64,000 nucleotides of DNA, taken from Tenacibaculum sp. 190524A02b. GTDB lineage: Bacteria; Bacteroidota; Bacteroidia; Flavobacteriales; Flavobacteriaceae. The stretch lies in NCBI RefSeq assembly GCF_964036645.1, contig NZ_OZ038525.1, positions 4,654,001 through 4,718,000 on the forward strand, written 5' to 3'. The notes beneath the pieces were generated by a model, which was given only the letters and a program-made list of their open reading frames with translations, was not told the origin of the DNA and searched no databases. Both the position numbers and the translations under genes were made by a program. This document shows, one piece after another, positions 4,252 to 24,211 of the stretch; position 1 is the stretch's first letter, and every line of letters starts with the position of its first letter.

Positions 4252-7200
4252 TTAATTAATAAGTAATTTTTTAATGGCATTATTACCATTGTTTTCAACT
4301 TGAATTAAATAAACTCCAGACTGTACATTTTCAAAAGTAACTTTTTCATTAAAAATAGCAGGTGCACTAGTGTTTTTAGGTTTGATTTCAATTAAGTTAA
4401 CAAACTTTTTAGTATCAATAACTCTTCCTCTAAGATCTAATAATTTAACAGTTACTTTGTTTGGATTATAAGTTTCAAAAGCCAATTTAAAAGAACCATT
4501 AGTTGGGTTAGGGTATAGTTTAAACTCGTTCAAAGATATATTATTGGAAGAAGCTGTTTCGTCTTCAACAATAATAGTATAATCTTCAACTTCTCCATCA
4601 AAACCTTGTTCACAAGAACCTGGATCACCATCGTCTGCATATTTAGTAGAAACTCTTAAAACTGTTGACCCAAATTCTGCATCATTAGGAATCATAATGT
4701 TAAGAGGACTTAAAGATGTTTGTCCATCAGCACTACCTGTAACTGTACCTAAATCATAAATTTCTTTTGTGTCAAACTGACAATCTTGATTCCAATCAAT
4801 CCAAGCGATACTTTTAGTTGTATATTGAGTTGTGGCAGAATCATCAGTATTAGTATTTACTGTTAATTGATGTGTTTGTCCTCTCTTTACAGTGGTATTA
4901 ATAGATTTAAAATCTTCATATCCTTTACTCTTAGTAAGTGTTTTGTTTTCGAAAGTATTGAACTTAACAAAAGTTGTACTTGTATTATATGAAAGGTTAC
5001 CTGAAGAACTACAAACTGTACTTTTAATATTTAATTTAACCTCAGCTGTTTTACTTATTGAGGCAGATTGAGCAGATAATGTGATAATATGATCACCATC
5101 TGCAACATTTTGTATGTTTTCTATGTTCAATGTAACTGTTCCGTCAGTGCTAAGTGAACTAGGAATTACACTTGTAGTAGAGCCTGTAGGGCTTTTTGTT
5201 ACTGTGAAGTTTACTGTTTCGTTAAAACCATTAGATACAGTATAACTAAACTCAAAAGTTAATTCATTGGTAATTGATTTACATACAGAAGCATCACCAG
5301 TAATGTTTGAAATAGCAAAATCAGGTGTAGAACTAATTTTAAATTGAGAGGTAATATTGTAAAAAACATTATCAGCAGCTTCAATCAAAAGAATAGCATT
5401 TTCAGTATCAGGAATATTAGCAGGTAAAGTAATATTTTGACTACCATCATTAGGTGTGTTTGCTAAAAGCATAGTAAATGTAGTACCACCATCAGTAGAT
5501 AGTTTAATGTTAACTTTTTGACAATTAATAGGTGAGCTGTTAGTTTGTCCAACGACCCAAGTAATATTTCTACTAGTATTTTGAGCCCAAGTAGCTTGGT
5601 TGTTTATAGTGAAAGCAGGTGCGTCAATTACAGAAACTCTGATGTCATCTCTTGCACTTGCTCCACCACCAGCTTTATTATCTCTAACAGTAAAAGCAAA
5701 GTTCATTTCTCTGGCTACAGAAGGTAAAACTTCCCATTGTGTAGCTGTGTTTCCAGAAAGTATTGTATTGAAAGCAGGAAAGTATCTGTCTGGAGTAGTT
5801 TTAGAAGATAAAGATCTAAATAAAGGTCCACCAGTATTTGTAGCTACTGGAGGCATAACAGCTATTTCAGTATCAATTTGTTCCCAATTATAAGTTAAAC
5901 TTGAGGTTCCATCTGCATCAGTTGCTTGTCCTTTTAAAACAAAAGGTGTTGATTTAGGAATACTAACATCAGATCCTGCATTAGCTGTAGGAGCATTGTT
6001 ATTTGTATCAGTTTGAACGGCACATGTAGCAGTTGTTTGTGTTAAATTCCACATTTGATTTATACTAACCGCATGAAAATGATCATCACTATTGTTTTGT
6101 ACATTTGGCGAACAAATTCCAGCATAAGCCATAATGGTAGAACCACTACCAGGTTCAACAGCAGTAGATCCTGTTCTATTACCGTTACAAGAGTTGTTAA
6201 ATGTATGAGTAGCACCAAATTGGTGTCCAATTTCATGAGCTACATAATCAATGTCAAAGGGATCATTAATAGGTTGTCCTCTACCAGTAATACCTCTTGC
6301 TTTTTGTCCTTCAGTACATACAACACCTAAGCCAGCAAGTCCACCACCACCAGTACTAAAAGTATGACCAATATCGTAATCATTAGAACCAATGAGGTTG
6401 TCACATACAGTTTGGCTCTCATTGATTAGAGATCCTGCGCTGTTATTTGAAAGGTTATCAGTTTCAGGGTCTAAAAAGATAAGTTTGTCATTATCATTTA
6501 CTAAAATCATTCTAACAGCTAAATCCCTTTCATATACAGCATTGACACGTGTCATTGTTGTATTCATAGCCGATAATACGGCAGCTTTTTTATCTTGGTC
6601 ACTGGCTGTATCAGGTATATTTTGTCTACTAATATGAAATTTTGAATATTCACCTGTAGCAGCAATAGCAATTCTGTAAGTTCTTAATTTTCCATCATTC
6701 GCATTTCGGTTGTACTGGTTGATAGATTTGTTAGCTATAATTTTCTCTTTTGCTTCATTAACTTTACATTCAAAATCACTTTTATCATAATTATAATCTT
6801 CTCTATTATATGAAATGTAGTATTGTTTATCTTTAGTTTTAGGATCTATATATAGAGAGTTATGATTAGCCGAAGTAATAATAACATGAACTCCATCAAT
6901 ACCAATACTTATCTTGGCGGTAGCAGTAGGGTCATCAATACCATAAGCAGTATAAGACTTTATAGTAGGGAATTTTTTAGCTAATTTTGGAGCTAAAATA
7001 GAGGTTTCTTCAATGTAGAATTTAGAAAATTTACCAATTGTGTTTGGTAAGTCAACTATAGTTTTTGATGTAGAAGGTTTAGAAGAAAGATAGGCACTGA
7101 ATTCATTAAGATTTAATGAAAATAAATGATGTTTTTTAGGGGTGTGCTTTCTTTCATAATTAATCGTTTTGTTATTAACACTATTAGTTTCTATTTTTTT

Positions 7201-7266
7201 CCAGTAATTTTGTGCATTGGAAATAGTTGCAAGTGTTAATAGCAACAGAAGGGTGATTTTTCTCAT
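4252..7266 (-). CDS. Secreted reprolysin-like zinc metalloprotease with T9SS sorting domain
   Basis: This 1004-residue multidomain exoprotease has a signal peptide (1-18) and a propeptide-like region to about 195. The metzincin catalytic domain contains HEIGHQFGATH, the HEXXHXXGXXH zinc motif (His344, Glu345, His348, His354). A PKD-like repeat domain follows at about 425-550, then further beta-sandwich modules. A GEVEDY-containing module ends near residue 896. The C-terminus from about 911 (LYPNPTNG through GVYLIQVENNG) is a type A T9SS sorting domain. It is expected to be exported by type IX secretion and to degrade extracellular protein. It is monocistronic, facing a shared terminator. Confidence 0.92.
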   Translation of the reverse strand: MRKITLLLLLTLATISNAQNYWKKIETNSVNNKTINYERKHTPKKHHLFSLNLNEFSAYLSSKPSTSKTIVDLPNTIGKFSKFYIEETSILAPKLAKKFPTIKSYTAYGIDDPTATAKISIGIDGVHVIITSANHNSLYIDPKTKDKQYYISYNREDYNYDKSDFECKVNEAKEKIIANKSINQYNRNANDGKLRTYRIAIAATGEYSKFHISRQNIPDTASDQDKKAAVLSAMNTTMTRVNAVYERDLAVRMILVNDNDKLIFLDPETDNLSNNSAGSLINESQTVCDNLIGSNDYDIGHTFSTGGGGLAGLGVVCTEGQKARGITGRGQPINDPFDIDYVAHEIGHQFGATHTFNNSCNGNRTGSTAVEPGSGSTIMAYAGICSPNVQNNSDDHFHAVSINQMWNLTQTTATCAVQTDTNNNAPTANAGSDVSIPKSTPFVLKGQATDADGTSSLTYNWEQIDTEIAVMPPVATNTGGPLFRSLSSKTTPDRYFPAFNTILSGNTATQWEVLPSVAREMNFAFTVRDNKAGGGASARDDIRVSVIDAPAFTINNQATWAQNTSRNITWVVGQTNSSPINCQKVNIKLSTDGGTTFTMLLANTPNDGSQNITLPANIPDTENAILLIEAADNVFYNITSQFKISSTPDFAISNITGDASVCKSITNELTFEFSYTVSNGFNETVNFTVTKSPTGSTTSVIPSSLSTDGTVTLNIENIQNVADGDHIITLSAQSASISKTAEVKLNIKSTVCSSSGNLSYNTSTTFVKFNTFENKTLTKSKGYEDFKSINTTVKRGQTHQLTVNTNTDDSATTQYTTKSIAWIDWNQDCQFDTKEIYDLGTVTGSADGQTSLSPLNIMIPNDAEFGSTVLRVSTKYADDGDPGSCEQGFDGEVEDYTIIVEDETASSNNISLNEFKLYPNPTNGSFKLAFETYNPNKVTVKLLDLRGRVIDTKKFVNLIEIKPKNTSAPAIFNEKVTFENVQSGVYLIQVENNGNNAIKKLLIN

Positions 7267-7333
7267 TTGTAATTATTTAGTTTCTAATAAAAAATGAATC
7301 TCTAATAGAAGTAGGGGTTTACGAGTTAAAGGT

Positions 7334-8032
7334 ATGAATAAAAAAGTACATGTAAAAGATTTACATATAAAAGATTATAAGGATACATGGGATTTGCAGA
7401 CCTCATTGTTAGATGAAATTGTTAGTTTGAAAAGGCAAAGAAGGAATGGTAATGAAGCTATAATTACTCCAAATCATTTTTTATTTGTGGAGCATCCTCA
7501 TGTTTATACATTAGGAAAGTCAGGAGATTTAAGTAACCTACTGCTTAATGAAGAACAATTAAAAGCAAAAAAAGCTACTTTTTACAAAATTAATAGAGGA
7601 GGAGATATTACTTATCATGGGCCAGGGCAAATAGTTGGCTACCCAATTTTAGATTTGGAAAATTTCTTTACTGATATTCATAAGTATTTAAGGTTATTAG
7701 AGGAAGCAATTATTTTAACCATTGAAGAGTATGGTATTAAAGGTGAAAGAAGTGAAGGTGAAACTGGAGTCTGGTTAGATGTAGGGACTCCTTTTGCTAG
7801 AAAAATTTGTGCAATGGGTATCAGAGCAAGTAGATGGGTTACTATGCATGGGTTTGCTTTAAATGTAAATGCTAATTTAGGATATTTTGATAATATTATA
7901 CCTTGTGGAATTAGGGGTAAAGCTGTAACTTCAATGGAAGCGGAATTGGGTAAGAAAGTACCAGAAGAAGAAGTCAAGCAAAAAATCTTAAAACATTTTA
8001 AGGAGTTGTTCGAGGTTGAAGAATTTATATAA
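7334..8032 (+). CDS. lipB: Lipoyl(octanoyl) transferase LipB
   Basis: LipB moves octanoate from acyl carrier protein to lipoyl domains of 2-oxoacid dehydrogenases and the glycine cleavage H protein. The 232-residue sequence has the family signature GGDITYHGPGQ (89-99), the catalytic lysine in RKICAMG (Lys157) and the catalytic cysteine in IIPCGI (Cys191). Length is typical. It is divergent from the protease gene, with a 67-base gap, and ends at a strong hairpin. The partner lipA lies 25 kb away on the other strand. Confidence 0.97.
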   Translation: MNKKVHVKDLHIKDYKDTWDLQTSLLDEIVSLKRQRRNGNEAIITPNHFLFVEHPHVYTLGKSGDLSNLLLNEEQLKAKKATFYKINRGGDITYHGPGQIVGYPILDLENFFTDIHKYLRLLEEAIILTIEEYGIKGERSEGETGVWLDVGTPFARKICAMGIRASRWVTMHGFALNVNANLGYFDNIIPCGIRGKAVTSMEAELGKKVPEEEVKQKILKHFKELFEVEEFI

Positions 8033-11604: not shown

Positions 11605-12360
11605 CTAATTCTGCATTAAATCATCAATTTTATCTTTGACAGATCCTTTTTCCCCAATTCTAATGAATCTAAAGAGTATTTGAGGAATTAAGCCCGGAGA
11701 AATAATAATCGAAGCATTTTTTGCAACTTTAATATCTCTCTGATTTATAACTTCACTAATCTCATTTTTGGGAGTGTTTGCAACTTTGGTAGCAAATTTC
11801 CATGCTCCATTTCTGGCAAGTTCCATACTGAAGTTTACTAAGAAGTTGTCAATTTTATGAGTGTATTTAAGAATCTTTTTTAAAAAAGGCCAAACTTTAG
11901 ATAAATCATTTTCAACTTCATTAACAAGAGAAGCTAAAATGGTATTTATTTTGTTAAAGTCATTTTTTAAATCATTAATAGGTTTTCCTTCAGAAACTTG
12001 AGCCGCTGCAATACCTAAATCAAGATTAATGTGAGCGTTCATACCTATTAGTAAATGTTGTAAAACTATAGGCCAGTATTTATCAGAAATTGAAAAAGCT
12101 TTTTCCCAAGATAAAGTTACCGGCTTGTTTTTTTGGTAATTATAATAAGCTTCAATGTATCTTTTTGCAAAAATTACATCTAACTTCTCCATACGTTCTC
12201 CGTTTTCAAAAAAATTGTTTGAAATTCCTTCTTTAACCTTTTCAGTAACTTTTAAATATAATGCTGCAAAATATCCAGTAGTACTTTTGTTTGTAATGGC
12301 TTCATCTATAATTTTTTTTAATGTATTTATTACATCATCTATAGTTTCAATAGTTGGCAT
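11605..12360 (-). CDS. DUF5995 family protein
   Basis: The 251-residue protein has no signal peptide and resembles the DUF5995 family. Recognisable stretches are the TTGYFAALYLKVTEKV helix, FFENGERMEKLDV, and a LQHLLIGMNAHINLDLGIA segment with conserved His residues that could bind a ligand or metal. No enzymatic activity is established for the family. The ATG at 12358-12360 was preferred over one twelve codons upstream because conserved sequence begins there. It is possibly co-transcribed with rsgA (39-base gap). Confidence 0.7.
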   Translation of the reverse strand: MPTIETIDDVINTLKKIIDEAITNKSTTGYFAALYLKVTEKVKEGISNNFFENGERMEKLDVIFAKRYIEAYYNYQKNKPVTLSWEKAFSISDKYWPIVLQHLLIGMNAHINLDLGIAAAQVSEGKPINDLKNDFNKINTILASLVNEVENDLSKVWPFLKKILKYTHKIDNFLVNFSMELARNGAWKFATKVANTPKNEISEVINQRDIKVAKNASIIISPGLIPQILFRFIRIGEKGSVKDKIDDLMQN

Positions 12361-12483
12361 ATGTTTTTTAGTTTGGTTTTGTGTAAAGTAAAACAAAATA
12401 AATTAGATTTATTTTTATTTTAATAAAAGTGCTGATTTTAAACCTAAAAGATTATATTCGTGCCAATTTTAAAAATATTTATT

Positions 12484-13024: not shown

Positions 13025-14107
13025 TTACCCTTTGATAATTTTTTCTTGGTGGTTAATACTCTCTTGGTGAATAGCTTTAAACATTTTTAAAACAAATTCT
13101 TCGCTTAAACCTCTAGACTCACCTTCTAAAATCATGTTTCCTAATATTTCATTCCAACGTTTAGATTGTAATACGGCAACATTTTTCTCTTTTTTAAGCT
13201 CTCCAATTTTGTCAGCTATTTTCATTCTCTTCCCTAAAGTATCTATTAACTGACTATCTGCAACATTAATTTGAGCTCTTAAATTATCTAGGTTTTCTTT
13301 ATAAGTTTCATCTGTGGTAGTTTCTTTTCTAACTCTAAGATTTTCCATTATTTGTTTTAAGCTATCAGGAGTAACTTGTTGAGCTGCATCACTCCATGCA
13401 TTATCAGGGTCATTGTGTGTTTCAATCATTAAACCATCAAAATTTAAATCTAAAGCAGTTTGAGAAACATCAAAAACCATGTCTCTTTTTCCTGTAATGT
13501 GTGAAGGGTCACAAATTAATGGTAGGTCAGGAAATCTGTTTTGGAATTCAATAGCTAACTGCCATTCAGGAATATTTCTATATTTTGATTTTTCGTAAGT
13601 AGAAAACCCTCTATGTATTGCTCCTAAATTTTTAATGCCTGCTGAATATAACCTTTCAATTCCTCCTAACCATAAAGCTAAATCTGGATTTACAGGGTTT
13701 TTAACTAAAACGGTTTTGTCAGTTCCTTTTAAAGCTTCTGCAATTTCTTGCATTATAAATGGGCTAACTGTTGAACGAGCTCCAATCCAAAGTAAATCAA
13801 TATCATGTTCTAAGGCAAGGTCAACGTGAGCAGAGTTAGCTACTTCGGTACAAGTTTTCATTCCTGTTTCCTCTTTTACTTTTTGAAGCCATTTTAAACC
13901 TAAAGCGCCTACACCTTCAAAGTTTCCTGGTCTAGTTCTAGGTTTCCAAATACCAGCTCTGAAATAGTTTACATCTGAGTCTTTTAATTGGTGAGCAATA
14001 GTTAATACTTGCTCTTCTGTTTCAGCGCTACAAGGTCCTGCAATTACTAATGGATGCGGAAGCTCCATGTTGTTAAGCCATGTTCTTAGTTGTTTTGAAT
14101 TCTCCAT
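13025..14107 (-). CDS. Bifunctional DAHP synthase / chorismate mutase (type II)
   Basis: The 360-residue fusion has an N-terminal DAHP synthase (about 1-265: VIAGPCSAE, FRAGIWKPRTRPGNFEG, ICDPSHITGKRD) and a C-terminal AroQ-type chorismate mutase helix bundle (about 270-355). It condenses phosphoenolpyruvate and erythrose-4-phosphate to open the shikimate pathway and converts chorismate to prephenate, feeding pheA and tyrA in the same operon. The mutase domain can confer prephenate feedback in related enzymes. It is the last gene of the four-gene operon, 25 bases after tyrA, with a terminator downstream. Confidence 0.95.
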   Translation of the reverse strand: MENSKQLRTWLNNMELPHPLVIAGPCSAETEEQVLTIAHQLKDSDVNYFRAGIWKPRTRPGNFEGVGALGLKWLQKVKEETGMKTCTEVANSAHVDLALEHDIDLLWIGARSTVSPFIMQEIAEALKGTDKTVLVKNPVNPDLALWLGGIERLYSAGIKNLGAIHRGFSTYEKSKYRNIPEWQLAIEFQNRFPDLPLICDPSHITGKRDMVFDVSQTALDLNFDGLMIETHNDPDNAWSDAAQQVTPDSLKQIMENLRVRKETTTDETYKENLDNLRAQINVADSQLIDTLGKRMKIADKIGELKKEKNVAVLQSKRWNEILGNMILEGESRGLSEEFVLKMFKAIHQESINHQEKIIKG

Positions 14108-14132: not shown

Positions 14133-14981
14133 TTATTGTATTCCGTTTAAAATTTGTTTGATATGATTGGTGTTTTCCATTTCTTGATAAATCTCTTGGA
14201 AATTATCTTGTAACATCAACTCTTTAAATTGTTGTAGATTGTTTATGTATTCGTCTAAGGTTTCTATAACGTTAGTCTTATTTTGTTGAAAAATAGGCGT
14301 CCACATTGCTGGAGAGCTTTTTGCTAATCTAACAGTAGAGGCAAAACCACTACCAGCCATATCAAAAATATCTCGCTCATTTTTTTCTTTCTCAATAACA
14401 GTTTTTCCTAGCATAAATGAACTTATGTGTGACAAGTGAGAAACATAAGCTATATGTTTGTCATGTGATTTTGGGTCCATGTATCGAATTCTCATGCCAA
14501 TTTTTGAAAAAATAGTTAAAGCTTTCTCTTGTAATTTAAAAGCCGTTTTTTCAACTTCACAAATAATGTTTGTTTTACCTCTATATAAATTCTTTAATGC
14601 AGCTTTAGGACCTGAAAATTCTGTTCCAGCAATTGGGTGTGTAGCTAAAAAGTTTCTTCTTTTAGGGTTATTTTTAACTATTTCACAGATATCTTCTTTG
14701 GTAGAACCAACATCTAATACTAAGGTATTATCATCAATAATTTCAAGTACTTTAGTTATTAGTTTTAAAGAAACGTCAACAGGAACAGATATAATTACTA
14801 CTTCAGCTTTTTCTAAATCTTTAAAAGTAGCTTTGTGTTGAATAATACCAATTTCTAAAGCTTCAAGTAGATGATTTTCATTATTATCTATTCCATAAAT
14901 AGTAGCATTTTCAAATTCGGTTTGAATGTCTAATGCCAAACTACCACCAATTAATCCCAGTCCAATTACAAATACATTCAT
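14133..14981 (-). CDS. tyrA: Prephenate dehydrogenase
   Basis: TyrA oxidatively decarboxylates prephenate to 4-hydroxyphenylpyruvate for tyrosine. The 282-residue protein begins with the Rossmann motif GLGLIGGSLA (7-16) and carries DVGSTKEDI, the substrate motif HPIAGTEFSGP and the helical C-terminal domain with YVSHLSHISSF. It has no fused mutase or ACT domain. It abuts the aminotransferase gene with no intergenic base and sits in the attenuator-controlled Phe/Tyr operon. Confidence 0.95.
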   Translation of the reverse strand: MNVFVIGLGLIGGSLALDIQTEFENATIYGIDNNENHLLEALEIGIIQHKATFKDLEKAEVVIISVPVDVSLKLITKVLEIIDDNTLVLDVGSTKEDICEIVKNNPKRRNFLATHPIAGTEFSGPKAALKNLYRGKTNIICEVEKTAFKLQEKALTIFSKIGMRIRYMDPKSHDKHIAYVSHLSHISSFMLGKTVIEKEKNERDIFDMAGSGFASTVRLAKSSPAMWTPIFQQNKTNVIETLDEYINNLQQFKELMLQDNFQEIYQEMENTNHIKQILNGIQ

Positions 14982-16124
14982 TTAAAATCGTGTTATCGCT
15001 TCCTTAATTTGTTTTTCTGAGACACATAACGAAAAGCGAATGTATCCTTCTCCTTGGCTACCAAAAATAGTACCTGGGGCTACAAAAATATTTTTATTAT
15101 ATAGTAGGTTATCAACTACTTTTTCTGATTCCTGACCTTTAGGAAGTTTAGCCCATACAAACATTCCTGTAGCATTTTTATCGTAGCTACAATTTAAAAT
15201 ATCAGCCAAGTTAAAAATAAGCTCCTGTCTTGTTTTATATATTTTGTTTTGTTCTACAAACCATTGATTGTCTAGTTCTAAAGCTTCAATAGCTCCTTTT
15301 TGGATGCCATAAAACATACCAGAATCCATTTGGGTTTTTACTTTCAAAACTTCATTTAAAAAGTTAGAAGAGCCAATGAGCTTTCCAACACGCCAACCAG
15401 CCATATTAAAAGATTTGCTTAATGAATTTAATTCTAAAGCAATGTTTTTAGCTCCTTCTACTTGTAAAATACTTAAAGGTTCTTCGTTAAGTATAAAGCT
15501 ATAAGGGTTGTCATTTACTATAACAATGTGATGTTTCTTTCCAAAAGAAATTAATTTCTCATAAGTTTCTTTAACAGCTTTAGTGCCAGTAGGCATATGT
15601 GGATAGTTTACCCACATAAGCTTAACCTTACTTAAATCTAATTGTTCAAGTTCATCAAAGTTAGGCTGCCAATTGTTTTTATCGTCTAAATTATAATAAA
15701 TAGGATTTGCTCCTACCAAATTAGTAACTGAACTATAGGTTGGGTAACCTGGGTTAGGAATTAAAACGTTATCACCTTCATTTAAAAAAGCTAAAGAAAT
15801 ATGCATAATCCCTTCTTTACTTCCCATCAAAGGAAGTACTTCACTATCTGGATTAACTGTAACATTATACTTACTTTTGTAAAAAGCAGCTACAGCATTT
15901 CTAAACTCAGGTAATCCTTGATAACTTTGGTATTTATGTGCTCCAGAATCTGTTAAGCTATTTTGAATAGCTTCAATTACAGACTTTGGAGGTTGTAAAT
16001 CAGGGCTTCCAATTCCCATATTAATAATTGGTTTGCCTTCATTAGCTAACGCTCTAACTTCTTTAAGTTTTTTAGAGAAGTAGTATTCTTGTACGGTTTG
16101 TAAACGATTTGCAAAAGTTATCAT
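14982..16124 (-). CDS. PLP-dependent aminotransferase, probable aromatic amino acid aminotransferase
   Basis: This 380-residue class I/II aminotransferase shows GIGSPDLQPP near the N-terminus, the NPGYPTYSS loop, VNYPHMPTG, and the PLP-lysine motif SLSKSFNMAGWRVG. From context, between pheA and tyrA, it most likely carries out the last step to phenylalanine and tyrosine from phenylpyruvate and hydroxyphenylpyruvate; the sequence alone would also allow LL-diaminopimelate aminotransferase-like activity. It overlaps pheA by four bases, giving translational coupling. Confidence 0.85.
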   Translation of the reverse strand: MITFANRLQTVQEYYFSKKLKEVRALANEGKPIINMGIGSPDLQPPKSVIEAIQNSLTDSGAHKYQSYQGLPEFRNAVAAFYKSKYNVTVNPDSEVLPLMGSKEGIMHISLAFLNEGDNVLIPNPGYPTYSSVTNLVGANPIYYNLDDKNNWQPNFDELEQLDLSKVKLMWVNYPHMPTGTKAVKETYEKLISFGKKHHIVIVNDNPYSFILNEEPLSILQVEGAKNIALELNSLSKSFNMAGWRVGKLIGSSNFLNEVLKVKTQMDSGMFYGIQKGAIEALELDNQWFVEQNKIYKTRQELIFNLADILNCSYDKNATGMFVWAKLPKGQESEKVVDNLLYNKNIFVAPGTIFGSQGEGYIRFSLCVSEKQIKEAITRF

Positions 16125-16945
16125 AATCTTCCGTTTTTATATTCGCCTAATATTTTAAAGTTGTTTGCCATGATTTCAATAATCGATTTTGCTTTGGCAA
16201 AATCGCTATACTCATTAAAAGTAGTATCCACAAAGAAGGCATACTTCCAAGGAGTATCTATAATTGGTAATGATTGAATTTTTGTAAGGTTTAGTTTACA
16301 GTCACTCATTACATTTAGTACAGTAGCCAAGCTTCCTCTTTTATGATCTAATTCAAAACGTAAAGAAGCTTTGTTGATACTGTTTATATTGTTTTCAGGT
16401 TTTTCAGTTTGTAGTATAACAAAACGAGTTTCGTTATTTTTTATAGTTTGTATTTCATCTTCAATCACTTCTAAACCAAAAATATCAGCAGCAATTTTTG
16501 GAGCAATAGCAGCCACACCTGATAATTTTTCTTCTGAAATAGTTTTTGCTACAGCAGAAGTATCTACATCCTCAACTAATTTTATGAAAGGATGTTTTTT
16601 AAAAAACTCTTTACATTGTAATAAAGCCATTGGATGTGAGCATACCTCTCTAATATCTTCAATATTTTGATTGGGTAAAGCCATCAGGTGATGATGGATT
16701 GGTAAATAGTATTCCCCAGAAATATGTAAGTTATATTTGTCTATTAATGCATAGTTAGGGATAATTGACCCTGCAATAGTATTCTCTATTGCCATAACAG
16801 CTTCATCAGAGCTTTTTGACAATAGGCTGTCAGTTAGAATGTCAAAGGATAAACATTCATTTAGCTGAATGTTTTTCCCGTAAAAGTTCTCCGCAACTAT
16901 GTGGTGATTACTTCCCTGTATTCCTTGAATGGCTATTTTTTTCAT
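16121..16945 (-). CDS. pheA: Prephenate dehydratase
   Basis: This 274-residue monofunctional enzyme converts prephenate to phenylpyruvate. Visible motifs are GIQGSNHHIVAENFYG at the N-terminus, AIENTIAGSI, SHPMALLQC, the catalytic NNETRFVIL (Thr-Arg-Phe), and a C-terminal ACT domain (about 195-270) whose usual ESRP element reads IQSLP, so the site for phenylalanine feedback is modified. It is the first gene of the operon. Its ATG lies only nine bases after the T-run of an attenuator hairpin. Confidence 0.94.
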   Translation of the reverse strand: MKKIAIQGIQGSNHHIVAENFYGKNIQLNECLSFDILTDSLLSKSSDEAVMAIENTIAGSIIPNYALIDKYNLHISGEYYLPIHHHLMALPNQNIEDIREVCSHPMALLQCKEFFKKHPFIKLVEDVDTSAVAKTISEEKLSGVAAIAPKIAADIFGLEVIEDEIQTIKNNETRFVILQTEKPENNINSINKASLRFELDHKRGSLATVLNVMSDCKLNLTKIQSLPIIDTPWKYAFFVDTTFNEYSDFAKAKSIIEIMANNFKILGEYKNGRL

Positions 16946-16953
16946 TGTTGTGC

Positions 16954-16984
16954 AAAAAAAAAGCCTCGATGTTATCGAGACTTT
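16954..16984 (-). terminator. Attenuator terminator in the pheA leader
   Basis: In the transcribed (minus) direction AGTCTCGAT (16982-16974) pairs with ATCGAGGCT (16970-16962) around a three-base loop with one G-U pair, followed at once by nine U's (16962-16954). It lies between the promoter and the pheA ATG, so it can stop transcription before the operon. Confidence 0.88.
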
Positions 16985-17030
16985 ATGGTTATACTATTTT
17001 TTTGTTATTCAAAATATGTCATAAAGTCTC
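16977..17030 (-). promoter_or_regulatory. Antiterminator pairing of the pheA leader
   Basis: GAGACTTTATG (17030-17020) is perfectly complementary, over 11 bases, to CATAAAGTCTC (16987-16977). The second strand overlaps the 5' arm of the attenuator terminator, so the two structures exclude each other. The first strand lies inside the leader peptide reading frame, downstream of the Phe/Tyr codons. A ribosome stalled on those codons leaves it free, and a ribosome reaching the stop codon covers it. Confidence 0.85.
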
Positions 17031-17088
17031 TGCTCTTACTAAAAAAGTAAAAGTAAAAATAGAAACCTTGCCATACATTGTTTAACAT
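17005..17088 (-). CDS. Phe/Tyr leader peptide of the aromatic operon
   Basis: A 27-codon frame from ATG (17088-17086) to TAA (17007-17005). Residues 9-16 read FYFYFYFF, eight aromatic residues in a row. There is also a Trp at residue 6 and further Phe/Tyr at 22, 25 and 26, so 11 of 27 residues are Phe or Tyr, the products of the downstream operon. It lies 22 bases downstream of a predicted -7 box, before the antiterminator and terminator hairpins. Peptide function is as a translation sensor, as in E. coli pheL; the peptide itself probably has no other role. Confidence 0.85.
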   Translation of the reverse strand: MLNNVWQGFYFYFYFFSKSRDFMTYFE

Positions 17089-17116
17089 CGAATTGTGTCT
17101 TTTTATTTGTTCGGGA

Positions 17117-17148
17117 CAAATCTTGAAAATAATTTTTAAATAACCAAA
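17117..17148 (-). promoter_or_regulatory. Predicted pheA operon promoter
   Basis: On the minus strand TTTG (17148-17145) is followed after 20 bases by AAGATTTG (17124-17117), one mismatch from the Bacteroidota -7 consensus TAnnTTTG. This places the start roughly 20 bases before the leader peptide ATG. Confidence 0.6.
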
Positions 17149-20690: not shown

Positions 20691-20751
20691 AAAAATAAAA
20701 AACCTCCATATACTAAATCAGTTTTAAGCTGATTAAGGTATATGGAGGTTT
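20691..20751 (-). terminator. Strong terminator hairpin in the leader of the OCD/ThrC-like operon
   Basis: In the minus direction AAACCTCCATATAC (20751-20738) pairs over 14 bases with GTATATGGAGGTTT (20713-20700). An inner AATCAG/CTGATT stem extends the hairpin, and U-rich sequence follows to 20691. It ends 23 bases before the OCD-like ATG and no minus-strand gene lies between it and the tRNA genes upstream, so it reads as an attenuator rather than the end of a gene. Confidence 0.85.
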
Positions 20752-21046: not shown

Positions 21047-21048
21047 AG

Positions 21049-21122
21049 CGGTCTGGACGGGACTCGAACCCGCGACCCCATGCGTGACAGGCATGTATTC
21101 TAACCAGCTGAACTACCAGACC
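21049..21122 (-). tRNA. tRNA-Asp (GTC), copy 1
   Basis: The 74-nucleotide cloverleaf has a GGTCTGG/CCAGACC acceptor stem with discriminator G, a D arm, anticodon loop CTGTCAC with anticodon GTC, and a GGTTCGAGTCC T arm. CCA is not encoded, so it is added after transcription. The sequence is identical to the second copy 92 bases away. Confidence 0.97.
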
Positions 21123-21170: not shown

Positions 21171-21214
21171 TATTTTTTAAAGAACTATTCTCGTTTTTTT
21201 TGAGAAAATCTTAG

Positions 21215-21288
21215 CGGTCTGGACGGGACTCGAACCCGCGACCCCATGCGTGACAGGCATGTATTCTAACCAGCTGAACTACCAGACC
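21215..21288 (-). tRNA. tRNA-Asp (GTC), copy 2
   Basis: This 74-nucleotide tRNA is identical to copy 1, including anticodon GTC and no encoded CCA. Parts of the flanks (TTAGC at the 3' side; GTTGC and a TATATTTG box at the 5' side) are also shared, so the pair looks like a tandem duplication that included the promoter. Confidence 0.97.
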
Positions 21289-22820: not shown

Positions 22821-22915
22821 CCTCTAAATTAATTTAGAGGAGAAATTTGTTCTGATTGCAACCTCATTAAAAAATGCTAAAGCAGTATTTAAATTACTTC
22901 TTTTTGCAGCAATCA
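22821..22915 (+). promoter_or_regulatory. Structured 5' leader of metK (candidate SAM-responsive RNA)
   Basis: The leader opens with a perfect 20-base palindrome (CCTCTAAATT and its complement, 22821-22840). A long-range stem follows: TGATTGC (22853-22859) with GCAATCA (22909-22915). It encloses an AACC segment and a small TGC-TAAA-GCA hairpin (22875-22884). Conserved-looking unpaired purine runs and the position in front of S-adenosylmethionine synthetase suggest a metabolite-sensing RNA; I cannot match it to a named SAM riboswitch class. A 23-codon frame (22874-22945) also runs through it and could instead be a leader peptide. No U-tailed terminator is present, so any control would be at translation. 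Confidence 0.45.
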
Positions 22916-22957: not shown

Positions 22958-24211
22958 ATGTCATATTTTTTTACCTCTGAAAGTGTTTCAGAAGGGCATC
23001 CAGATAAAGTTGCAGATCAAATTTCAGATGCGTTAATAGATAACTTTTTAGCATTTGATTCAGATTCTAAAGTAGCTTGTGAAACATTGGTAACTACTGG
23101 TCAAGTAGTTTTAGCTGGTGAAGTAAAATCAAACACCTATTTAGATGTTCAGAAAATAGCACGTGATGTTATTAATAAAATAGGATATACTAAAGGCGAG
23201 TATATGTTTGATGGGAACTCATGTGGGGTTTTATCGGCTATACATGAACAATCAGATGATATTAATAGAGGAGTAGATAGAGCCAGTAAAGAGGAGCAAG
23301 GAGCAGGAGATCAAGGTATGATGTTTGGATACGCTACGAATGAAACTCAAAATTATATGCCTTTAGCATTAGATTTGTCTCATTTGATTTTGAAAGAATT
23401 GGCAGTATTGCGTAGAGAAAGTAAAGAGATTACTTATTTACGTCCAGATGCTAAAAGTCAGGTAACTATTGAATATTCTGATGATAATGTTCCGCAACGT
23501 ATTGAAGCAATTGTAGTTTCTACACAGCATGATGATTTTGATGCAGATGAAGAAATGTTAGCTAAGATTAGAAAAGATATCGTAGAGATTTTAATTCCAA
23601 GGGTAAAAGCAAAATTAACCCCTGAAATTCAAGGATTATTTAATGAGGATATAAAATATCATATAAATCCAACAGGTAAATTTGTTATTGGTGGTCCTCA
23701 TGGAGATACTGGATTGACTGGTAGAAAAATTATTGTGGATACCTATGGAGGAAAAGGAGCACATGGAGGCGGAGCTTTTTCAGGGAAAGATCCTAGTAAA
23801 GTAGATAGGTCTGCTGCTTATGCAACGCGCCACATAGCTAAAAATTTAGTAGCTGCTGGAGTGGCTGATGAGGTTTTAGTTCAAGTTTCTTATGCTATTG
23901 GTGTAGTAGAACCAATGGGGATTTTTGTAGATACGTATGGTACCGCTAAAGTTGATTTAACTGATGGAGAAATAGCTCAAAAAGTTTCTGAAGTTTTTGA
24001 TATGCGTCCACATGCTATAGAGGAACGTTTAAAATTAAGAACTCCAATGTATAGCGAAACAGCAGCTTATGGGCACATGGGGCGTGTAAATGAAGTAGTT
24101 TCTAAAACATTTACACAACCTAATGGAGAACAAAAAACAATGGATGTAGAGTTGTTTACTTGGGAAAAGTTAGATTATGTAGCTAAAGTTAAAGAAGCAT
24201 TTCAATTGTAA
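22958..24211 (+). CDS. metK: S-adenosylmethionine synthase
   Basis: MetK makes SAM from methionine and ATP. The 417-residue protein carries [15 protein letters not shown] at the N-terminus (catalytic His/Asp), the hexapeptide-type GAGDQG(MMFGYA) ATP motif and [16 protein letters not shown], the second conserved MetK motif. Length matches Bacteroidota MetK, which is slightly longer than the E. coli enzyme. It is a single gene with a structured leader and a clear terminator. Confidence 0.98.

Follow-up and report, generated by a model that had tools for sequence, protein, structure and literature searches.

The aromatic operon and its leader region

The window, i.e. the whole stretch of 64,000 nucleotides analysed here, comes from a single-contig genome of 5.04 Mb, in which it covers positions 4654001 to 4718000; among the best 80 of 172 named loci, the pheA genes closest to its own are those of Tenacibaculum. 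Four genes for aromatic amino-acid synthesis lie side by side on its minus strand:

16121-16945, minus strand: pheA, prephenate dehydratase (Pfam PF00800, PDT)
14982-16124, minus strand: class I/II aminotransferase (Pfam PF00155, Aminotran_1_2)
14133-14981, minus strand: tyrA, prephenate dehydrogenase (NCBIfam NF006307 over its cut-off; Pfam PDH_N/C)
13025-14107, minus strand: DAHP synthase-chorismate mutase fusion (Pfam PF00793, DAHP_synth_1, and PF01817, CM_2)

An earlier note, made from the letters of this DNA, had described an operon for Phe and Tyr synthesis, and the Pfam matches confirm this gene content. PF00793 is matched by two proteins of the genome, the operon's own and a KDO8P synthase, the latter over its NCBIfam cut-off, and a Pfam model search of the genome found no type II DAHP synthase. 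Judged by these two Pfam models, the operon appears to hold the only DAHP synthase, and so the sole entry enzyme for Phe, Tyr and Trp in this genome. The next ORF downstream of the operon on the same strand (11605-12396) encodes 263 amino acids and has no NCBIfam match. At another locus, L311, a single 675-aa frame (5887-7914, minus strand) carries prephenate dehydratase, DAHP synthase and chorismate mutase domains and has an aromatic leader upstream.

Direct reading of the minus strand from 17148 to 16954 gives, in this order, a promoter-like site, a leader ORF, an antiterminator and a terminator, followed by pheA:

17117-17148, minus strand: probable promoter, TTTG (17148-17145), a 20-nt spacer and AAGATTTG (17124-17117)
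17088-17005, minus strand: leader peptide ORF, MLNNVWQGFYFYFYFFSKSRDFMTYFE*, 27 codons, 11 of them Phe/Tyr
17071-17073, minus strand: Trp codon, the single one of the leader, three codons ahead of the first codon of the run
17064-17041, minus strand: proposed stalling run FYFYFYFF, eight consecutive Phe/Tyr codons
17025-17067, minus strand: 1:2 (pause or protector) hairpin of the Phe/Tyr codons with the antiterminator strand, in the minimum free energy fold, -12.3 kcal/mol
17030-17020, minus strand: region 2, antiterminator 5' strand GAGACUUUAUG, inside the leader ORF
16987-16977, minus strand: antiterminator 3' partner CAUAAAGUCUC, 11 bp with region 2, -13.4 kcal/mol
16974-16987, minus strand: region 3, shared strand, pairing with region 2 or region 4
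16954-16984, minus strand: intrinsic terminator, a hairpin of 11 bp (-11.9 kcal/mol) and nine U's

The leader ORF with its eight-residue run, the antiterminator whose first strand lies within that ORF, and the terminator that shares the second strand were all named in the earlier note, and direct reading bears them out. The terminator hairpin, AAAGUCUCGAU-AAC-AUCGAGGCUUU, extends from 16984 to 16960, 20 bases after the leader stop, and the nine T's from 16962 to 16954. The distance from the T run to the pheA ATG (16945) is eight bases and not nine, as had been stated. The promoter-like site called near-consensus has both boxes, with one mismatch in AAGATTTG to the consensus TAnnTTTG. The Trp codon and the 1:2 hairpin were absent from that note. 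The latter stands beside the terminator in the minimum free energy fold; in attenuators the role of such a protector is to end transcription of an untranslated leader.

The 150-nt stretch from 17095 to 16946 folds with a z-score of -5.2, and none of 200 shuffles was equally good. The rarity of the Phe/Tyr run was dropped as evidence, the eight-codon pattern having 21 matches in the 5.04-Mb genome, some of them overlapping, versus 9 for the pattern read backwards. It is the combination of the features, together with its conservation, that goes beyond chance, not the run alone.

Genomes and loci examined

The loci were collected at several levels. The named loci were the best 80 of 172. In the genus, pheA was located in 54 of 58 genomes, 30 of which were taken as loci. 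The family sample, of approximately one genome per genus, gave pheA in 136 of 149, and 135 of these were examined, one being left out for an in-frame stop in pheA. Across the phylum pheA was located in 128 of 148 genomes; 19 of the 95 lying outside the class were examined, and four class genomes of this sample had no pheA match. The 16 class genomes outside the family represent five families, a thin sampling of the remainder of the class. In total, 286 loci with upstream sequence were available, including that of the window's own genome; 274 were distinct over 250 nt, and 12 pairs had identical 250-nt upstreams.

The folding analyses left out 26 of the 286 loci, in which no ATG-started leader lay within 420 nt, and removal of identical 250-nt upstreams reduced the remaining 260 to 248 distinct leaders.

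Conservation of the leader and terminator

In 263 of the 286 loci, the 700 nt upstream of pheA contain an aromatic-rich ORF followed by a terminator. The controls gave 2 of 286 for shuffled sequences, with a single shuffle per locus, and 3 of 286 for antisense sequences. A stricter threshold left 261 loci versus none in either control. The combination was present in 79 of 80 named loci, the sole miss (L045) having only 153 nt of upstream sequence, in 29 of 29 genus loci and in 133 of 135 genomes of the family sample (131 at the stricter threshold). In the class outside the family it preceded pheA in 14 of 16 genomes, and the remaining two have a leader before aroG. Outside the class it was found in 3 of 19 loci (L158, L161 and L164), whose pheA is 44-45% identical to the query; identity is at most 36% in the other 16.

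The ORF alone gave a similar picture. Defined by an ATG start, 7 or more aromatic residues out of 10 and a distance of up to 400 nt from pheA, it occurred in 259 of 286 loci, against 17 of 2860 shuffles and 1 of 286 antisense sequences. A search within 420 nt gave an aromatic-rich ATG-started ORF in 260 loci, and in all 260 a hairpin with a T run, which was a search criterion, lies in the interval from -25 to +130 nt relative to the leader stop. For L239 one hairpin search returned an implausible 45-nt hairpin, and the wider search for ORF and terminator gives a normal one.

These distances bear on a control acting on translation only, in which the hairpin would mask the pheA start without terminating, or the leader would feed ribosomes to pheA. 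The U run of the window does end only eight bases before the ATG, and reinitiation at leader peptides has been proposed for many phyla including Bacteroidetes (PMC4833913). However, the distance from the hairpin to the pheA match ranges from 12 to 86 nt (5th to 95th percentiles), which fits termination and not start masking, as does the T run required by the search in the 260 loci, and the 59 bases from leader stop to pheA ATG in the window are far for reinitiation. We consider control by translation only very improbable.

Displaced, missing and tandem leaders

The two leaders before aroG belong to two genomes of one genus (L151 and L152), where pheA is the last gene of an aroG-aroB-aroA-pheA cluster according to Pfam. 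A leader, MLITAAIYFTFFYFYFRSQ(N/S)RIGAVYC..., and a strong terminator lie ahead of aroG. Two members of the same family (L157 and L165) have kept the leader before pheA. Elsewhere the leader lies far upstream of pheA, by 463 nt in L223 and 652 nt in L211, or starts with GTG (L267).

Some loci lack it. No leader was found for L244/L316, nor any other operon gene within the 10 kb around that pheA. A true miss is L253/L317, a genome of the family in which the operon is complete and no leader was found. Nor is there a leader in two loci from a different family of the same order, whose pheA is divergent (30 and 32% identity).

Tandem units were flagged in 4 of the 286 loci. L265 and L268 (also L309 and L310) have two consecutive leader-terminator units ahead of pheA, each with an aromatic leader. 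The first unit of L268 gives a clean switch in the stall model described below; the other three units of L265 and L268 switch after the aromatic run, with an antiterminator probability of 0.2-0.4 left at the stop. The extra units of L080 and L187 were taken as chance, the additional ORF scoring only 6 and the hairpin being weak.

Covariation of the pairing strands

Region 3 occurs in a few core types, GUCUCG (162), GUCCCG (37), GUCCUG (10), AUCCCG (10) and others. Dropped before the test were 4 of 248 leaders with long hairpins and 12 of the remaining 244 without a recognised core. Covariation was measured by swaps between core types and not counted on the MAFFT alignment (A1), because the register of region 2 relative to the frame differs between lineages. 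Regions 2 and 4 change together with the core type of region 3. The 2:3 pairing had an energy of -11.9 kcal/mol with its own partner versus -7.5 kcal/mol with partners from another core type, the own partner being better in 223 of 232 leaders, a comparison that favours own pairs since region 2 was chosen by its pairing. For 3:4, the own partner was better in 232 of 232.

The earlier note had set lack of conservation of the leader frame and of the hairpin complementarity beforehand as a refutation. That test was run, and both are conserved, in 263 of the 286 loci and with covariation of three strands; the interpretation given there is supported as far as sequence reaches.

The leader ORF might instead encode a small functional peptide, the hairpin being merely the terminator of that transcription unit. 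Wide conservation of the ORF would suit this, and leader peptides can act in trans, as does peTrpL of Sinorhizobium (PMC7298713). However, the C-terminal residues vary in step with the RNA pairing, for example NETLYV accompanying the GUCUCG strand and GTGLF the GUCCCG strand, and the peptides share composition more than sequence. Moreover, the leader precedes an operon making its own main residues, also where the cluster starts with aroG. A functional peptide is thus, to our judgement, extremely improbable.

A covariance model was built from 46 leaders, including that of the window. It scored the window leader at 74.4 bits, as against 40.0 for the next-best place in the genome. It finds leaders outside its training set, including both leaders before aroG, which had not been used to build it. 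A search of class genomes gave a match at E ≤ 0.01 in 70 of 149, a figure that is not a count of attenuators: among 15 matches followed up, 7 were an aromatic leader before pheA (L323, L325, L326, L327, L332, L333 and L337), all in further genomes of the class, and 8 were not.

Terminator/antiterminator switches are common among riboswitch, T-box and repressor-bound leader RNAs, and such a metabolite- or protein-binding RNA could control the terminator here, the ORF being a by-product of U-rich sequence. The genome does use riboswitches, with a SAM-II element in the window. However, neither the window nor any of 20 relatives had an Rfam match at the leader that reached the gathering score of its family; no T-box or riboswitch was thus matched there, the window's total being two tRNAs and the SAM-II element, and the 20 relatives gave only two matches, both to Flavo-1 and elsewhere in L144. 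By eye, the 46-sequence alignment shows no prominent conserved unpaired stretch outside the ORF and the helices. The frame and the aromatic content are maintained with all four Phe/Tyr codons in use, the spacing of the aromatic run to the switch is kept, and TGG falls mostly in frame (172 times, against 17 and 23 in the two other frames). We hold such a binding RNA to be highly unlikely.

Folding with a stalled ribosome

The stall model is an equilibrium folding of the nascent RNA with an assumed ribosome footprint. With the ribosome at the best aromatic position, the antiterminator had a probability above 0.5 in 245 of 248 distinct leaders; with the ribosome placed at the stop, this was the case in 0 of 248. 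One of the 248, with a spacer too short or no switch, was excluded from the analysis of codon positions. With the ribosome at the middle aromatic codon the probability exceeded 0.5 in 244 of 247. In 233 of 247 leaders the switching codon, i.e. the last A-site codon that leaves the antiterminator favoured, is the last aromatic codon itself or one of the three codons after it (0 to +3). Shuffled spacers still gave a probability above 0.5 in 541 of 1235 cases, versus 244 of 247 for the real ones, so AU-rich sequence explains part of the antiterminator pairing.

Without a ribosome the model still favours the antiterminator in 213 of 248 leaders, and only 33 of 248 showed all of the classical behaviour, with the switch on during a stall and off both at the stop and in the untranslated leader. 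Folding kinetics could alter the outcome for the untranslated leader.

The sequence thus shows which parts are there and that they are conserved, that the helices exclude each other and covary, and where the switching codon lies. A leader ORF with codons for the products of the operon is followed by an intrinsic terminator between leader and first gene, and in the computational model an exclusive antiterminator is freed by a stall on product codons and covered at the stop.

Initiation, probable promoter and amino acids possibly sensed

A Shine-Dalgarno-like word at the leader start was found in 4 of 248 leaders, and 77% of leaders have an A at -3, where the window has a T. The promoter pattern TTG-N17-24-TAnnTTTG occurs upstream of the leader in 73 of 248 relatives versus 3 of 248 shuffled sequences. 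The missing A at -3 and the promoter one base off are points against the window's leader.

Following the start codon, the leaders contain 22.9% Phe, 15.3% Tyr and 3.0% Trp. Trp is present in 170 of 248 distinct leaders, mainly 9, 7, 5 or 4 codons ahead of the last aromatic codon (70, 22, 32 and 29 cases). TGG occurs 172 times in frame and 40 times out of frame; the leaders being related, these are not 172 independent events. The Phe/Tyr-rich leader proposed in the earlier note is conserved, but control by Phe and Tyr may be too narrow a description, given the Trp codons and the apparently sole DAHP synthase. The leader may sense Trp as well.

Other elements in the window and in the genome

The same genome has a candidate Trp leader, MKMQNNIWWWNSLNSN, with a WWW run and a terminator seen by eye, before trpE (G000:C1, approximately 1803000, minus strand; L318). 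If that leader works, Trp is sensed elsewhere too. Rfam RF01692 has a sub-threshold match over it, 46.2 versus 49 bits. A candidate His leader, MTFIHLHHHHHTCTQAS (HHHHH), again with a terminator seen by eye, precedes hisG (G000:C1:1763232-1763246, minus strand; L293). Approximately 120 nt upstream of ilvD (L320) lies a short ORF, MANDRRSLVLIVAKN, possibly a branched-chain leader, where no clear U-run terminator was seen.

In the window, a long hairpin followed by a T-rich run (20701-20750, minus strand) is a possible 5' regulator and is followed by genes for ornithine cyclodeaminase-like, threonine synthase and homoserine kinase-like proteins. A SAM-II riboswitch (22831-22890, plus strand) at gathering score lies before a gene at 22958 that looks like metK. 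Two tandem tRNA-Asp genes (anticodon gtc; 21048-21122 and 21214-21288, minus strand) have similar flanks.

Comparison with known systems

The locus resembles pheL-pheA of E. coli, as generally described, with its product-rich leader peptide, its mutually exclusive antiterminator and terminator, and a prephenate dehydratase gene downstream. In contrast to pheL-pheA, in the leaders studied here Tyr is prominent beside Phe, Trp is frequent and Shine-Dalgarno-like words are rare, and the operon of the window also has tyrA and a DAHP synthase. The model of the Rfam family RF01859 (Phe_leader) matches positions 16954-17075 of the window with its full length (35.5 bits, E = 0.0079), below its gathering score of 55, and no gathering-level match to it was found among the 20 relatives.

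Attenuation is a textbook mechanism, its use in this phylum is already indicated, and the pheA element has already been glimpsed. Lopatovskaya et al. (2010) may already predict attenuators in Bacteroidota, and therefore we make no claim of a first prediction. RF01692 (Bacteroid-trp) is described as a tryptophan peptide leader of Bacteroidetes (PMC2864571); like the window leader it is a leader-peptide RNA of the same phylum, but for another amino acid and operon and with another sequence, and at its cut-off of 49 bits it has no match at the phe leader in the window. In Flavobacterium psychrophilum, clues to leader peptides upstream of amino-acid operons were reported in 2021, together with a 5' element upstream of pheA that is conserved in other Flavobacteriaceae genera and has no Rfam hit (PMC9723704). 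This is very probably the same element as that of the window; the passages of that paper on it give neither the leader sequence, a mechanism for pheA, nor a range beyond the family. The statement in the earlier note that no description was known in Flavobacteriia is only partly right, in view of this pheA element, of the leader-peptide clues before amino-acid operons in F. psychrophilum and of the trp leader known from the phylum.

In Bacteroides thetaiotaomicron, long 5' UTRs contain short ORFs resembling leader peptides, the example named there being BT_4401 and not pheA (PMC7366714), and two candidate uORFs with F and Y as notable residues were listed before shikimate-metabolism genes (PMC6429828). 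In its passages on the his genes of the phylum, one study mentions attenuation for enterobacteria only (PMC8305728). The present analysis adds the anatomy, the wide range, the covariation, the link to the head of the operon, the frequent Trp codons and two tandem cases.

Proposed mechanism and significance

We regard a ribosome-mediated transcription attenuator of the aromatic operon as highly probable. We infer transcription start, leader translation, stalling, termination and coupling of ribosome and polymerase as follows. RNA polymerase would start at approximately 17110, and a ribosome would follow, translating the leader. When charged Phe- or Tyr-tRNA, or perhaps Trp-tRNA, is scarce, the ribosome would stall in the aromatic run, leaving region 2 just outside its footprint and able to pair with region 3 once this is made. 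No terminator would then form, and pheA, the aminotransferase gene, tyrA and the DAHP synthase/chorismate mutase gene would be transcribed. With charged tRNAs the ribosome would proceed and cover region 2, region 3 would pair with region 4, and transcription would stop at the U run, eight bases before pheA.

A wider reading is tentative, and we lean slightly towards doubt: one ancestral attenuator would gate the entry of the whole aromatic pathway across the class of this genome, one peptide reading Phe-, Tyr- and Trp-tRNA as the operon holds the only DAHP synthase. It would have stayed with the head of the operon when genes were rearranged, would have become a tandem pair in two lineages, and would serve ribosomes that start without Shine-Dalgarno sequences.

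The leader is a concrete candidate regulator of aromatic amino-acid synthesis in a major phylum, and one of three candidate leaders (phe/tyr, trp and his) in a single genome. If the Trp codons matter, one peptide would sense three amino acids at their shared pathway entry. Ribosome-mediated attenuation requires the leading ribosome to keep up with RNA polymerase, so a conserved attenuator without Shine-Dalgarno words allows a direct test of transcription-translation coupling in Bacteroidota; if attenuation does operate with ribosomes starting in this way, polymerase and ribosome would be tightly coupled in this phylum.
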